Shown: positions 6,773-58,190 of the stretch, piece by piece | Layout of the letters: each line of letters begins with the position of its first letter | Position numbering within the stretch: the first letter of the stretch is position 1 | Source: Lentisphaerae bacterium GWF2_49_21 | GTDB taxonomy: Bacteria > Verrucomicrobiota > Lentisphaeria > Victivallales > GWF2-50-93 | DNA: 64,000 bases | NCBI GenBank assembly: GCA_001804805.1 | Contig: MHBH01000032.1 | Coordinates: forward strand, 114,299 to 178,298 | Reading direction: 5' to 3' | Position numbers and translations under genes: made by a program | The notes under the pieces: model-generated | The model's input: the letters and a program-made list of their open reading frames with translations, nothing else | Databases searched by the model: none | Told to the model about the DNA's origin: nothing

Positions 6773-6814
6773 TGATTCCAAGTTTCAAGTATCCAGCATC
6801 GAGTATCAAGTATC
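6773..6814 (-). repeat. heptamer array (unit GATACTN) after holB
   Basis: Six seven-base units read on the minus strand begin 11 bases after the holB stop codon. Units vary as GATACTT, GATACTC, GATGCTG, GAAACTT and GGAATCA. The same unit and orientation follow six other genes in this window. Confidence 0.7.
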
Positions 6815-12416: not shown

Positions 12417-12813
12417 TTGAGAATCACACCTTTATTATACGTATTTTTTCTTTTCAGCAAAATAGCACTTTTTTCAGTGCAATACAATACGCACAAGACG
12501 GTTGGAGTCCGGTAAGACCAATTCAAAGTAGTAAATCGGGATGCCGAAAAGTTCGCATAAGTGAAGAAATCAGTTATTCAATACAAAGATTTGCTTGCGA
12601 TATGATATTTGTTCGTAGTTAAGGCATTATTGGCTGTCTCTCTTAATAATCTAAGAAACACGCAAAAATGCGTTAACTACAAGCGAAAAAGTCCGACACT
12701 TCGTTGTTCGAGTGTTCGGCAGCCTAGGAACACATACAAGACCTGTACTGACCTGTACTGAGCTTGTCGAAGTTTACCTGTGCTACATTATTGTCGGCAA
12801 GATGCCGGCGCTC
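12417..12813. other. noncoding region with palindromic repeat elements
   Basis: No gene is visible. The stretch holds a 66-bp inverted-repeat element (12615-12680). After about 12740 come pieces of dispersed palindromes: a CTGAGCTTGTCGAAG-type sequence, then GTCGGC-AAGAT-GCCGGC followed by GCGCTCC. Related pieces occur near 39.4, 43.6, 56.1 and 58.1 kb. Confidence 0.5.
12615..12680. repeat. intergenic stem-plus-hairpins element (GTAGTTAA class), copy 1
   Basis: Ends are 14-bp inverted repeats with one mismatch (GTAGTTAAGGCATT / AATGCGTTAACTAC). Inside, the second hairpin is CGCA-AAAA-TGCG, while the first is degraded (GGC-ATTATT-GGC). A second copy with the same ends and spacing is at 22510-22573. 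Confidence 0.7.
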
Positions 12814-12855
12814 CGTTACTTCGACATTCGAAATTCAGCGTTCGAAGTTCGTTAT
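12814..12855 (-). repeat. heptamer array after the PurF-like gene
   Basis: On the minus strand, six units of seven bases begin directly after the stop codon. Several end in CGA (for example ACTTCGA, ATTTCGA, ATGTCGA). The unit differs from the GATACTN class, but period and position are the same. Confidence 0.6.
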
Positions 12856-14256: not shown

Positions 14257-14280
14257 GATAAACCTCCGTTGTTTAAAAAG

Positions 14281-14316
14281 TAATCAGTGATCAGTAATCA
14301 GTGATCAGTCATCGGC
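14281..14316. repeat. heptamer array upstream of the PurF-like gene
   Basis: Period-seven units read TCAGTGA, TCAGTAA, TCAGTGA, TCAGTCA on the plus strand. It is inverted relative to the array at 14437-14471, so the two could pair across the carB/purF-like intergenic RNA. Confidence 0.65.
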
Positions 14317-14436: not shown

Positions 14437-14471
14437 TCCACTGACAACTGATTACTGGTTACTGATAACTG
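14437..14471 (-). repeat. heptamer array directly after carB
   Basis: On the minus strand, CAGTTAT, CAGTAAC, CAGTAAT, CAGTTGT and CAGTGGA follow the carB TAA with no gap. Between this and the partner array are two small hairpins (GGCTTC-GAA-GAAGCC and AGGC...GCCT, about 14395-14428). Confidence 0.7.
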
Positions 14472-20396: not shown

Positions 20397-20440
20397 AATT
20401 ACCTCATGACATTTTTGATTTTTGATTTTCTATTTTCGAC

Positions 20441-20533: not shown

Positions 20534-20596
20534 TGGCATCCAGCATCGTATTCCTGATTTCCAGTTTCAAGTATCAAGCGTCCAGTATCAAGTATC
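20534..20596 (-). repeat. heptamer array (GATACTN) after pgsA
   Basis: This is the longest array seen, with nine seven-base units starting 6 bases after the pgsA stop, in the gene's orientation. Units include GATACTT, GATACTG, GACGCTT and GATGCTG. Confidence 0.75.
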
Positions 20597-22603: not shown

Positions 22604-22679
22604 GGAATGTGGTACAGGCGTCTCGCCTGTAATTATTTCTTCATTAATTTTCACAGGCGGGACGCCTGTCCCACATTCC
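22604..22679. repeat. intergenic stem-plus-hairpins element (GGAATGTGG class)
   Basis: Outer arms GGAATGTGG (22604-22612) and CCACATTCC (22671-22679) pair perfectly. Hairpin 1 is TACAGGCG-TCT-CGCCTGTA, and hairpin 2 is ACAGGCG-GGA-CGCCTGT, separated by about 21 AT-rich bases. Loops TCT and GGA can pair, counting one G-U. Confidence 0.85.
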
Positions 22680-22684
22680 TTAAT

Positions 22685-22705
22685 CGAATTCAAGTATCGA
22701 GTATC
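22685..22705 (-). repeat. short heptamer array overlapping the rimO stop
   Basis: Three units (GATACTC, GATACTT, GAATTCG) on the minus strand; the GA of the first unit is part of the rimO TGA stop codon. Confidence 0.6.
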
Positions 22706-39399: not shown

Positions 39400-39487
39400 A
39401 ATCCCCGTTCTCTGATTTTTAGTTTTGAATTGTCTTTTACTCACAGGCAAGGGTCGAAGTATGCCTGTGCTACATTTTTTTCAATTT

Positions 39488-39536
39488 CAATTCCGAACTT
39501 CCAGTATCAAGTTTCCAGTATCGAGTATCAAGTATC
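39488..39536 (-). repeat. heptamer array (GATACTN) after tadB
   Basis: Seven units begin 5 bases after the tadB stop, in its orientation. Upstream of the array (39440-39475) is a CACAGGC...GCCTGTG hairpin with a GGTCGAAGT loop. Confidence 0.7.
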
Positions 39537-44109: not shown

Positions 44110-44874
44110 ATGAGAAGAACAAAGTCAGTTGCCACGGCATGCCAACTGGGAAGGCGCTTCACTCTCGTTGAGATCCTGATTGTCGTCGCGATAATGGGGA
44201 TCCTGATGTTCATAGGCCTTCCAGCGTTCGAGAAGCTGGTGAAGGGAACCGGAGCGGAACTCGCATCCAGAAATGTTGCAAGCAAGATTGGCATGGCAAG
44301 AAGCTATGCAATAACAACCCGGCAGTATGTCGCGGTCCTTATGCCGACAGACGAAGCATTAGGAAGCGGGACGAACAAGCTTCCCAATGATTATATTTAC
44401 AAAGGACTCAAGCTTTGTGTCGTCTCTGCCAATTACACCTCAGGCACTCCGAATACTTTTACATTTAAAAGATGGGTTCCTTCTGAAAAATGGGACTTCC
44501 TCCCGACGGGTACTTCTATTATCGGTCTTAAGAGTACTCTTGGATATGTAAATGGTGACGAGACCACTTATCCTGATATTGTAGATGATGTTGATTTGTA
44601 TGAAATAGATAGAACAAAATATTCAGATGAGACGGCTACGCATGCTCATGGGGTTCACAGTCCTGTCGCTACAGGTAAGTGTGTAACCCATATACGTGCA
44701 ATTGTCTTCAAGCCCACGGGGAAACTTGTCGGAAGCAGTCCAAGATATGTAACTGTCGGTGAATCAACGTATAATGGTTCAACGCTGGTCCATACGGGGA
44801 GTGCAAACAGGATTGATATAAAAATTGACCAATACACCGGTAAGACGACGTTGCTTACAACTGGAATGGAGTGA
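44110..44874 (+). CDS. gspH: type II secretion pseudopilin, GspH-like
   Basis: From ATG 44110 (GAGG 8 bases before) the protein has 254 residues. The prepilin motif RRFTLVEILIVVAIMGILMFIG includes the conserved Glu at +5. The residue before Phe is Arg, not the usual Gly. The globular part is consistent with a minor pseudopilin. Position as first of four prepilin-like genes in H-I-J-K order supports GspH, though sequence alone is weak. A GATACTN array follows the stop. Confidence 0.75.
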   Translation: MRRTKSVATACQLGRRFTLVEILIVVAIMGILMFIGLPAFEKLVKGTGAELASRNVASKIGMARSYAITTRQYVAVLMPTDEALGSGTNKLPNDYIYKGLKLCVVSANYTSGTPNTFTFKRWVPSEKWDFLPTGTSIIGLKSTLGYVNGDETTYPDIVDDVDLYEIDRTKYSDETATHAHGVHSPVATGKCVTHIRAIVFKPTGKLVGSSPRYVTVGESTYNGSTLVHTGSANRIDIKIDQYTGKTTLLTTGME

Positions 44875-44881
44875 AGGATTT

Positions 44882-44909
44882 GATACTCGAAAGTTGATAC
44901 TTGAAATTT
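44882..44909 (+). repeat. heptamer array (GATACTN) after gspH-like gene
   Basis: Units GATACTC, GAAAGTT, GATACTT and GAAATTT start 7 bases after the stop, in the gene's orientation. This is the only plus-strand example. Confidence 0.65.
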
Positions 44910-52930: not shown

Positions 52931-55483
52931 ATGTCCTTAAAATCTTTCCTTGTCGTATTGTTTAACCTTCTTGTTGTCATGGTGCTTGCTGCCGGAGAGG
53001 GGCTCGATATTAAGACCTTGGAAAAAATTAAAAAGGCTACGGTGTTCATTAAGATCAAAAAGACATATGATTCTCGAGAGTATAGGGGGTCTGGTTTTTT
53101 TGTGGCTGAGAATATAGTCGCCACTTCATTCCATATATTTAAAATACCACCCAATGAAGTGAATGATTTCAAAGGGGAGATATCAGTTATAGTAAATAGC
53201 GGGCTCAAGGATATAGAACGTAAGATACCAGGCAAGCTTCTAGTATCTGACGTCCCAAATGACATTGCCTTCATCCAGTTGCCTAAAGACTATCTCAAAA
53301 ATATTCCAGATGGTCTTCCTGAACCGATTAAGTTTTCTGAGGACGATAAATTAAATGAGACAACCAGCATACATGTTCTAGGATACCCCTTTGGAGAACT
53401 TCTCGCCGATAAACAAAAGGAGCCGTATATCACTATTGGGCAAGGCTCAATATCAAGCATTAGACGCAATCCCGATGGTGATATTGGCATTATTCAGATC
53501 GATGGGGATATGAATCCAGGTAACAGCGGTGGCCCAATAGTTGACGATGCGGGCAGACTTGTTGCGATGTCATGTGCAGGAATGGTCGGAACAGAGATTA
53601 ACTTCGGAATACCTGCTCGTGAAATCAAAAATGGTCTTGGGGGCCGTCCAGGATATGTATTTTTGACAAAGAAAATATATAAGGATGACAAATATTCATT
53701 TGATGTAAATGCATTGCCAGTGGATCCCGCCCAGAAAATTAAGAGCGTACAATTTCAGTTTTGGCATGGTGATAATCCTAGAACAAGATGTTCAGCAGAA
53801 AATTTGAAATATAAGGGTGAACATGGGGTTCCAGGTGATGGCCCCCTTCAGAATATTACATTAAAAAAATTACAGAACGGGATATGGAAGGGGAAGGTAA
53901 CCGAATATGTTATGCCAAAGGGCTCCAGCCTTTGGTTTGTCTGTGCCACCAAAGGTGATTGCGGGGAAATTAGAAGTAAGCCAACATGCCAGGAAGCTAT
54001 GGGATGGGTAGCAATGCCATCTTTTTTCGAAGAGGAGGAAGTTGCTGAAGTCAAATGGATGAAAGAACCTTTGGCGGATCTTGTCACAAGCAAGGAAAAC
54101 CCCATGGATTCAAATGTTGAGCAAGATGAAAAGGGCCTGAAATATGCATCCTTGACTTTAAATCCTGCAACAATAAATATGCCTGAAAATATCCTGCAGA
54201 TTGTCTGTCCCCCGAGTGGAAAGGAGATTTATGCCATATGCAGAGATTATCCCAAAATAAAAGTCTTTGACCCTAAGGACTTTAGCTTAAAAGCCGAGAT
54301 CAGGACACCCAAATACCCTATCAGCATCGCGTGCGATGAGAAATACATAGCTGTAGTTTGTAATGAATCGAAGGTGTTTACCATAATAGATTCTATAACA
54401 AAAGAGCCTATAAAATCCATTATAAATGAGCTGGAACCGGGCTCATCCCCATCAAAGATATTAGGCAGAGCTCCTAATGGAGGCTTTATCACAAGATGGG
54501 ATTTAAAGACAATAGGCACAATCAATAAGGAATATGCAATTGCAAGCATGGAAGGTCTTTATCCTCTTATTAATGCCACGGGTGCAACCTACGACAGAGC
54601 CAGCCCGTTTTCTAATGGACGATACCTGTTGCTTTTCGAGGAAGGCTCTAGCCAAATCGCTTATCTTGATTTGAATACATTAAAATTATTTTCTAGTCAC
54701 CAATACCAGGAAATCAGAAAACTTCTTTCTAAAAATATCTTTGACGACAAAAGGTATCGTATTTCTTCTGGAAGTTGTTCTTATGATAATGCCACACCTA
54801 TTATTTCATTTCAGGACGACTTTTATATGTCTAAGTCGATGCTGTTTTCTCCGGATTTAAAATGGCTAAATTATGAAATACCGGGAACGTTCATAAGGGA
54901 AGTCCCTCAAAAAGGATATCTTGTTACTTGGTTAAAGAAGCATACCAAAAATTTCAATGATGGGCTTGAAGTTTATTATGTTGCCCGCTCCAGCGGAAGA
55001 ATTTTAAGGAAAATCTATATTAAATATCCCCCCATGCCAAATTCGCAAGATGTTAATTATGTCTCCAATTATGCCAGATGTGCCAATTCTCCTACATCTT
55101 TGTATGTCCCTGGTTATGAACTTCTAATTTGGAAGGCGGACTTTGGTTTTCAAGCTGAAAAATGGTTTTCACTTAGATGTGGACCAATCAAAGAGGAAAT
55201 TGTCTTCCTGCCAAACTTGACCTTGAAAAATGCACCTGGCTCCACGATTACGGCTGAAGAAAATTATGAGTTTACACCTGAGATCATAGGAAGTGTTCCT
55301 GAAAACATAAAATTTAAATTGGAAGATTGTCCAACTGGAATGTCAATAGATCCCAATACAGGAAAGATCTCCTGGAAACCTGGAAAGGCTTATATTGGCG
55401 ATTATGACTTATGTATTATTGCTGGTCTCTCTCAAGAATCAATTTCATTATGTAAATGGACATTATCAGTAAAGCCAAAATAA
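52931..55483 (+). CDS. exported trypsin-like protease fused to a propeller-like region and an Ig-like domain
   Basis: After a signal peptide (MSLKSFLVVLFNLLVVMVLAAG), residues about 30-240 form an HtrA/S1C-type trypsin fold. The catalytic triad is visible: His68 (VATSFHIF), Asp111 (PNDIAFIQL) and Ser199 (NPGNSGGPIV). No PDZ domain follows. The middle (about 405-740) has beta-propeller-like strands (VFDPKDFSLKAEI, CDEKYIAVVCNESKVFTIID). The last 95 residues resemble an Ig-like repeat (CPTGMSIDPNTGKISWKPG). GGGGG lies just before the ATG. The gene is AT-rich compared with its chromosomal neighbours, a possible sign of transfer. The target is unknown. Confidence 0.82.
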   Translation: MSLKSFLVVLFNLLVVMVLAAGEGLDIKTLEKIKKATVFIKIKKTYDSREYRGSGFFVAENIVATSFHIFKIPPNEVNDFKGEISVIVNSGLKDIERKIPGKLLVSDVPNDIAFIQLPKDYLKNIPDGLPEPIKFSEDDKLNETTSIHVLGYPFGELLADKQKEPYITIGQGSISSIRRNPDGDIGIIQIDGDMNPGNSGGPIVDDAGRLVAMSCAGMVGTEINFGIPAREIKNGLGGRPGYVFLTKKIYKDDKYSFDVNALPVDPAQKIKSVQFQFWHGDNPRTRCSAENLKYKGEHGVPGDGPLQNITLKKLQNGIWKGKVTEYVMPKGSSLWFVCATKGDCGEIRSKPTCQEAMGWVAMPSFFEEEEVAEVKWMKEPLADLVTSKENPMDSNVEQDEKGLKYASLTLNPATINMPENILQIVCPPSGKEIYAICRDYPKIKVFDPKDFSLKAEIRTPKYPISIACDEKYIAVVCNESKVFTIIDSITKEPIKSIINELEPGSSPSKILGRAPNGGFITRWDLKTIGTINKEYAIASMEGLYPLINATGATYDRASPFSNGRYLLLFEEGSSQIAYLDLNTLKLFSSHQYQEIRKLLSKNIFDDKRYRISSGSCSYDNATPIISFQDDFYMSKSMLFSPDLKWLNYEIPGTFIREVPQKGYLVTWLKKHTKNFNDGLEVYYVARSSGRILRKIYIKYPPMPNSQDVNYVSNYARCANSPTSLYVPGYELLIWKADFGFQAEKWFSLRCGPIKEEIVFLPNLTLKNAPGSTITAEENYEFTPEIIGSVPENIKFKLEDCPTGMSIDPNTGKISWKPGKAYIGDYDLCIIAGLSQESISLCKWTLSVKPK

Positions 55484-56108
55484 TTATTGTGTAATTTGAA
55501 GTTGCCATACCGTCGAGTATTTTCTGATTGATGGTTGCCCTGTCCTTTATGAATTGTTCGTCTCCCGCGCGTTCACTAAGAATGATATTCTAAAAAGATA
55601 AGCGGAAGTATGCTTGGAATGCATTTTGCAAGCATCGAGTTGCATGGTCTATGAGTTCTTGTTATTAGGGGTTTGTATATGCTTGCCAGAGCGATGAAAA
55701 ATTTGCGTTTCCCCGCTTCGGGTAGGCTGGAGACCTGGAATTTACTGAAGCTCTGCGATGAAAAGTGGAATTGACAAGATGCATGCAAGCAATAACGACG
55801 GGCGTAAACTGCGGAAAAACATAATCCCCCCAAGTATGTATCAGAATTTGCAATAAAAGCATCTACTATATTGAACCCCATTGCAATGTCAAATTACAAC
55901 CGCAATTAAATTGCAGAAAATTACATGAGGGGACAGGATGGGGGTAGGTGGGGATGGGGAAGTTCTGGAGTTCTAAAATTCTGGAGTGCGCAAGTTCGGA
56001 AGTCCGGGAGTGAAAACAGAACATTGAATATCCAATATCCAGCAAGGAATGTCCAATTATGAAGGTGGTGCAATGAAAAGAGCCGGTCTGGAGACCGGCG
56101 CTCCTCTA
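55484..56108. other. noncoding AT-rich region and degenerate heptamer repeats
   Basis: Bases 55484-55920 hold no convincing gene; the minus-strand frame at 55576-55881 has no ribosome site or family. Bases about 55955-56060 contain degenerate seven-base repeats (AGTTCTG and ATCCAAT types). Bases 56081-56098 are GCCGGTCT-GGA-GACCGGC followed by GCGCTCC, a fragment of a dispersed hairpin. Confidence 0.5.
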
Positions 56109-56143
56109 ATATTTCCAATTTCAAGTATCAAGCGTCGAGTATC
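56109..56143 (-). repeat. heptamer array (GATACTN) after murB-ddl
   Basis: Five units (GATACTC, GACGCTT, GATACTT, GAAATTG, GAAATAT) begin 5 bases after the stop, in the gene's orientation. Confidence 0.7.
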
Positions 56144-58066: not shown

Positions 58067-58148
58067 GACGATTTTAATTTATCAGAAAAACACAGGCAAG
58101 ATGCCTGTGTTACATTAAGAATTGCCGGCCAGAGGCCAGCGCTCCTTT

Positions 58149-58190
58149 AAACTCCAAGTTTCAAGTTGCGAGTTTCCAGTATCAAGTATC
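58149..58190 (-). repeat. heptamer array (GATACTN) after hisI
   Basis: Six units begin 5 bases after the hisI stop, in its orientation (GATACTT, GATACTG, GAAACTC, GCAACTT, GAAACTT, GGAGTTT). Upstream (58088-58142) are CACAGGC-AAGAT-GCCTGTG and GCCGGCC-AGA-GGCCAGC hairpins. Confidence 0.75.

Follow-up and report, generated by a model that had tools for sequence, protein, structure and literature searches.

Heptamer arrays in the window

The window, a stretch of 64,000 nucleotides, belongs to a genome assembly of 5.9 Mb in 91 contigs (termed G000 below) and carries nine tandem arrays with a period of seven that begin 0-11 nt past a stop codon. All nine were recovered at the positions and on the strands given by the initial annotation, and seven of them (starts 6773, 20534, 22685, 39488, 44882, 56109 and 58149) are indeed composed of the unit GATACTN, written on the coding strand. 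The other two consist of GAATNTC-like (12814) and CAGTRAT (14437) units. The list was correct as far as it went, but two further arrays had been overlooked, namely an inverted mate spanning 14279-14313 and one of GATTTTY units spanning 20411-20437. Pfam matches agree with the gene names holB, pgsA, rimO, T2SSF/tadB-like, murB-ddl fusion and hisI, whereas the PurF-like gene gave a weak GATase_7 match alone and the 'gspH-like' gene gave no match. The features are as follows.

6773-6814, minus strand: GATACTN array, 11 nt past the holB-like stop
12805-12814, minus strand: start of a REP-like palindrome with GGAG tag, beyond the PurF-like array
12814-12855, minus strand: GAATNTC/GAACTTC-type heptamer array, immediately past the PurF-like stop
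14279-14313, plus strand: CAGTRAT inverted mate of 14437-14471, at the opposite end of the gap, close to where the PurF-like gene starts
14437-14471, minus strand: CAGTRAT heptamer array, immediately past the carB stop
20411-20437, plus strand: GATTTTY heptamer array, pointing inward from the opposite end of the gap that holds 20534-20596
20534-20596, minus strand: GATACTN array, 6 nt past the pgsA-like stop
22664-22674, minus strand: tagged palindrome (GTGGGACAGGC...), beyond the rimO array
22685-22705, minus strand: GATACTN array, overlapping the rimO stop
39463-39473, minus strand: REP start with GTAG tag, beyond the tadB-like array
39488-39536, minus strand: GATACTN array, 5 nt past the tadB-like stop
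44882-44909, plus strand: GATACTN array, after the plus-strand gene 44194-44874 ('gspH-like')
56095-56104, minus strand: REP start with GGAG tag, beyond the murB-ddl array
56109-56143, minus strand: GATACTN array, 5 nt past the murB-ddl stop
58136-58145, minus strand: REP start with GGAG tag, beyond the hisI array
58149-58190, minus strand: GATACTN array, 5 nt past the hisI stop

The window also contains an 850-aa ORF with a GNSGGPIVD-like serine-protease motif (52931-55483, plus strand), the composition of which was not accepted as native coding sequence by the gene caller used.

Placement and polarity of the arrays in the genome

The genome was sampled in stretches totalling 1.65 Mb (28% of G000), in which genes were called by a home-made, simple hexamer-model ORF caller that misses some real genes; several families of heptamer units were delimited only after inspection of the data. 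Strict intergenic arrays of period 7 occur 46 times in the sample, whereas no other period between 4 and 16 exceeds 8 occurrences, and none at period 7 appeared when a 0.86 Mb subset was Markov-shuffled. Period 7 lies far above expectation and above the other periods, as is characteristic of long simple sequence repeats of heptanucleotides. GATACTN arrays number 42 in the sample, 40 of them in intergenic gaps; for 29 the nearest border is a stop, with the array on the coding strand. Among the 38 that have two flanking genes, 24 are found in sense orientation at most 14 nt from a stop, compared with 2.75 expected (maximum 9 in 2000 trials) when place and strand were both randomised. Arrays of the 1.65 Mb sample within 30 nt of a stop are sense in 31 cases and antisense in 3 (p = 8e-7), and the hexamer GATACT is present in sense in 30 genes and in antisense in 5 within the 60 nt past stops, the ratio before starts being 11:10. 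The arrays of G000 are thereby confirmed to be placed just past stops and to be strand-polar along the gene. The initial annotation had called them too regular for random tandem repeats, which holds for place as well as for strand, and the genome-wide scan that it proposed reveals both the enrichment after stops and the strand bias in the 28% sample. Chance or base composition as a cause is ruled out by the shuffled copies, the comparison of periods and the random placement.

With the local majority strand as a proxy for the direction of replication, the array still follows the gene in 8 of 8 cases in which the gene opposes this strand. We therefore reject a replication-strand polarity; the direction of replication is seemingly not what sets the strand of an array. 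The type of gap does matter: arrays were found at 3 of 184 convergent stops vs 25 of 451 co-directional stops, and in 39 of 451 co-directional gaps vs 3 of 142 divergent gaps. The scarcity at convergent ends makes a role as transcription terminator unlikely.

Within the GATACTN unit, positions 1, 4 and 6 show little variation and position 7 is seldom A, a pattern that neutral decay alone would not give. A fixed phase of the first unit relative to the stop codon was considered, and no clear locking was found. With increasing distance from the stop, the unit variants succeed one another in the graded series GTAACT, GATACT, GAAACT and GAAATT (concordance of 129 at a permutation s.d. of 24, 0 of 5000 permutations; unit types set after seeing the data). 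This order suggests composite copying or a functional order, and growth from one end could also produce it; it is not predicted by plain slippage.

Start-side borders and inverted pairs

The rule that arrays stand after stops in the orientation of the gene is true past stops, but borders on the start side carry arrays as well. GAACWTC, GGTGTCA and CAGTRAT units share the preference for the stop side in sense orientation, while GATTTTT and ATTGCCR prefer the start side, where the strand they are written on likewise points away from the gene; these counts per family are descriptive because the writing strand of each unit was picked after viewing examples. For arrays whose nearest border is a start, the in:out counts are 15:2 for GATTTTT, 6:1 for GGTGTCA and 4:3 for GATACTN, and a merged GATACTN/GAAACTN set within 30 nt of starts gives 5:7. 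Gaps with two arrays have one unit at both ends, inverted and pointing inward, more frequently than after re-pairing of the gaps by permutation (p < 1e-4 in G000 and 0.009 in the congener G002), and this pairing test is free of any post-hoc choice of unit strand. When all gaps of the G000 sample were compared, 28 had inverted matching ends of any kind vs 0.5 expected; about half of these matches involve short-period arrays and the remainder REPs and other repeats. Gaps of 90-140 bp make up 12 of these 28 vs 151 of 666. GATACTN arrays are mostly single and the inverted pairs come mostly from other units. The two arms have the unit in common but, for most units, not the order of variants, and inverted heptamer arms are able to form long hairpins that span some gaps. 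Taken together, the arrays seemingly extend until they reach the outermost constrained base, at either end of a gene; one array (C28:107836) ends short of a ribosome-binding site.

Some gaps of the sample are occupied by palindromic fillers of ~120-130 bp with short-period arms (AACCACAGAACACACAGA) that begin 3-12 nt off both flanking genes (C26:115801-115926, C26:165195-165314 and C5:141656-141787 in sample coordinates).

Palindromes beyond the arrays

A same-strand tagged REP palindrome follows within 60 nt beyond 14 of the 29 stop-side GATACTN arrays, and none was found before these 29 arrays or inverted relative to them. Array-free stops have a REP within 120 nt in 54 of 504 cases (p = 1.4e-6 against 14 of 29, the distance windows differing slightly). 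Past stops, REPs are sense in 93 and antisense in 38 cases, the same bias as that of the arrays. Known REP/BIME sequences with RAYT transposases also lie just past stops, between co-directional or convergent genes (PMC3733652, PMC12306157), and they resemble the arrays of G000 in their post-stop site and strand bias in addition to occurring beside them. They are, however, tagged palindromes, whereas the arrays are non-palindromic tandem repeats in which the GTAG/GGAG-tagged palindrome is lacking, the REPs being located beyond them. Twenty matches to Y1_Tnp (RAYT/IS200-like; L170-L189) were obtained in G000, several of them flanked by their own or cognate tagged REPs, and a heptamer array was present at 0 of these 20 loci. 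We therefore do not regard the arrays as part of RAYT/REP units, even though REPs come after arrays.

Related species and other phyla

Strict intergenic period-7 arrays number 46 in 1.65 Mb of G000, 37 in 0.36 Mb of G002 and 1 in 0.25 Mb of a second congener, G001. The carB gene is 92% identical to that of G000 in G001 and 87% in G002, and yet G001 is almost free of arrays. G002 has long CTCRTAG-type arrays in its gaps, 2-7 nt off stops. In the small sets of orthologs available, not a single array is common to G000 and either congener at orthologous genes: of the orthologous gaps with arrays, 2 were G000-only and 2 G001-only in the first comparison, and 4 were G000-only and 9 G002-only in the second. 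Several array gaps of G002 correspond to only 1-44 nt or to an overlap of the genes in G000. GATACT arrays were found in many phyla near gene borders with mixed orientation (in a scan leaving out near relatives), and a universal sense rule was rejected with 22 sense vs 11 antisense arrays at most 20 nt past stops. The arrays are lineage-specific, and congeneric species use different heptamers.

In G002, entire gaps are filled with heptamers (C6:43144-43282 and C1:37145-37785), one array reaching up to ~500 bp, and contigs C4 and C88 end at or near long heptamer arrays; some contigs of G002 terminate inside arrays. The assembly probably breaks at such places, as short-read assemblies may cut long arrays, and array lengths are then underestimated.

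Comparison with known heptamer repeats

Cyanobacterial STRR are tandem heptamers in intergenic DNA, a description that applies equally to the arrays of G000. The initial annotation had limited this resemblance to the period, which is essentially incorrect: a similar rule of strand and distance has been published for the heptamers GGGAATC of Xanthomonas and GGGGAYT of Nostoc, which Rehm et al. (2015) linked to G-quadruplexes (PMC4692102). Those repeats are mostly found on the coding strand when they follow a stop and on the non-coding strand when they precede an ORF, at a distance of 0-50 bp in either case; they occur as dispersed singles and as convergent inverted pairs (many in Xanthomonas), with few between divergent genes, and a leading/lagging preference was not reported for Xanthomonas (PMC4692102). 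The arrays of G000 share with them the period of 7 with variable positions, the stop-close placement on the coding strand downstream of genes, the scarcity between divergent genes, the dispersed singles and the convergent inverted pairs, although the latter are mostly contributed by units other than GATACTN. They differ in that GATACTN has no G-tract and thus forms no quadruplex, that the unit changes within one genus and that REPs often stand beyond the arrays. The placement rule accordingly does not require G-tracts. A further difference concerns conservation, since 83% of the Xanthomonas repeats hold their place between Xcc and Xac (PMC4692102), compared with none for G000 with G001 or G002, where numbers are small and the species probably more distant.

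Long simple sequence repeats were surveyed by Mrazek et al. (2007), for whom heptamers were the commonest class in most genomes and polymerase slippage was the proposed origin; as that study is described in PMC4679880, it reports no rule of strand or border such as that seen in G000. TAACTGA heptamers of Beggiatoaceae, cyanobacteria and Bacteroidetes are intergenic and taxonomically patchy like our arrays, and they provide stops in all frames of one strand (PMC4679880). In the Maribeggiatoa genome they stand mostly just ahead of start codons (PMC4679880), whereas the G000 arrays stand mostly past stops. Intergenic arrays of the TAACTGA type were detected 7 times in the 1.65 Mb, and 5 of these are nearest a stop, in antisense, rather than upstream of starts. 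The arrays of G000 join an already published kind of repeat, and a similar placement rule was known before.

Models for the origin of the arrays

On balance, we lean towards a model in which strand-polar heptamer arrays have grown by slippage-type synthesis away from a constrained flank and have spread between loci. Arrays would be gained in gaps with their 5' end abutting a constrained border, above all the stop codon. Slippage-type reiterative DNA synthesis would then proceed in the 5' to 3' direction, leaving the conserved flank behind, and an array reading away from the border would appear in gene orientation after a stop and as an inverted array on the far side of the gap. A unit family presumably spreads between loci, and its arrays may persist in unconstrained sequence where they need not serve any function; a rapid turnover of units would leave congeners with different heptamers. 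The slippage at favoured sites considered in the initial annotation is compatible with the data, but slippage alone yields no polarity. The graded unit order and the limited variation within the unit speak against the growth model, as does the start-side half of the rule, for which GATACTN on its own gives little support (in:out 4:3; merged set 5:7), and the place-keeping of the Xanthomonas repeats suggests a function or a slower turnover there (PMC4692102). That the unit changes between congeners at constant period and placement, and that the rule holds without a quadruplex, detaches the rule from the sequence and directs attention to the way in which arrays arise or are tolerated.

A functional RNA element is an alternative that we consider unlikely. 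The arrays are probably transcribed, and an array in a 3' UTR or between cistrons, alone or with its inverted mate or a REP, might set the stability, processing or translation of the mRNA of the upstream gene. The strict coding strand, the close distance to the stop, the preference for co-directional and probably transcribed gaps, the low variation at three unit positions and the ability of inverted arms to fold into long cross-gap hairpins would all suit such an element, and REPs at most 15 nt from stops have been reported to stall ribosomes in work cited in PMC12306157. However, orthologous genes of the congeners have no array in common with G000, G001 is nearly array-free, the unit depends on the species and the strand is opposite at start-side borders. 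The more specific proposal that the arrays mark mRNA 3' ends is not supported: no array is common to orthologous genes of two congeners, convergent 3' ends are the poorer ones, and heptamers also adjoin start-side borders, there on the opposite strand. Relatives without arrays at the same genes, together with the similar placement in Xanthomonas and Nostoc, give the arrays the appearance of intergenic repeat DNA with a fast turnover rather than of a conserved mRNA-end mark. The interpretation given in the initial annotation is, as a whole, partly supported.

Small mobile elements, i.e. composite or palindromic REP/MITE-like units with heptamer arms that insert just past stops, could account for the REPs on the same strand beyond nearly half of the arrays, for the frequent 90-140 bp length of gaps with inverted ends, for the graded unit order and for extra DNA where the gap of a relative is short. 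We nevertheless hold this origin to be improbable: the Y1_Tnp loci are devoid of heptamer arrays though cognate REPs flank several of them, the inverted arms of most units have no common variant order, many unrelated units are involved and inspection by eye showed no target-site duplications.

Selection for back-up stop codons is very improbable. Sense units carry TGA, TAA or TAG, and being 7 long, units with a stop triplet provide stops in all three frames. The first four heptads past the stop contain ~0.55 stop triplets per heptad vs ~0.35 for all genes, the sense units of G002 carry TAG, and antisense GATACTN, which is the strand ahead of pseudopilin reading frames, is stop-free. Yet the stop-free units GAACWTC and GGTGTCA occupy the same stop-side sense position, by which back-up stops are rejected as the sole cause, and the native stop is usually intact and aligned with that of orthologs where compared.

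A telomere-like extension, in which heptamers of a species-dependent unit would be added 5' to 3' from the flank to exposed 3' DNA ends at both ends of a gap, would explain the arrays of Xanthomonas, Nostoc and G000 by one process, but we give it hardly any credence. The array-rich G002 (~90% complete) is without an RVT_1 match, which speaks against a telomerase-like reverse transcriptase, and Ku-dependent break repair was rejected with no Ku in eight relatives, so that a model built on broken ends would require a different joining route.

Under the favoured model of polar growth from a conserved flank, the arrays would show bacterial gaps growing immediately beside genes and, at some loci, into pseudopilin leaders. 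A heptamer array stands directly ahead of the FTLIEL motif in an open frame in 7 of 54 pseudopilin cases, and the leader peptide is there apparently encoded by repeat DNA. Array-preceded examples are L060 3224-3255, L079 1524-1555 and L139/L071, among others, with leaders such as HPVSSIQYQVS-FTLIEL.
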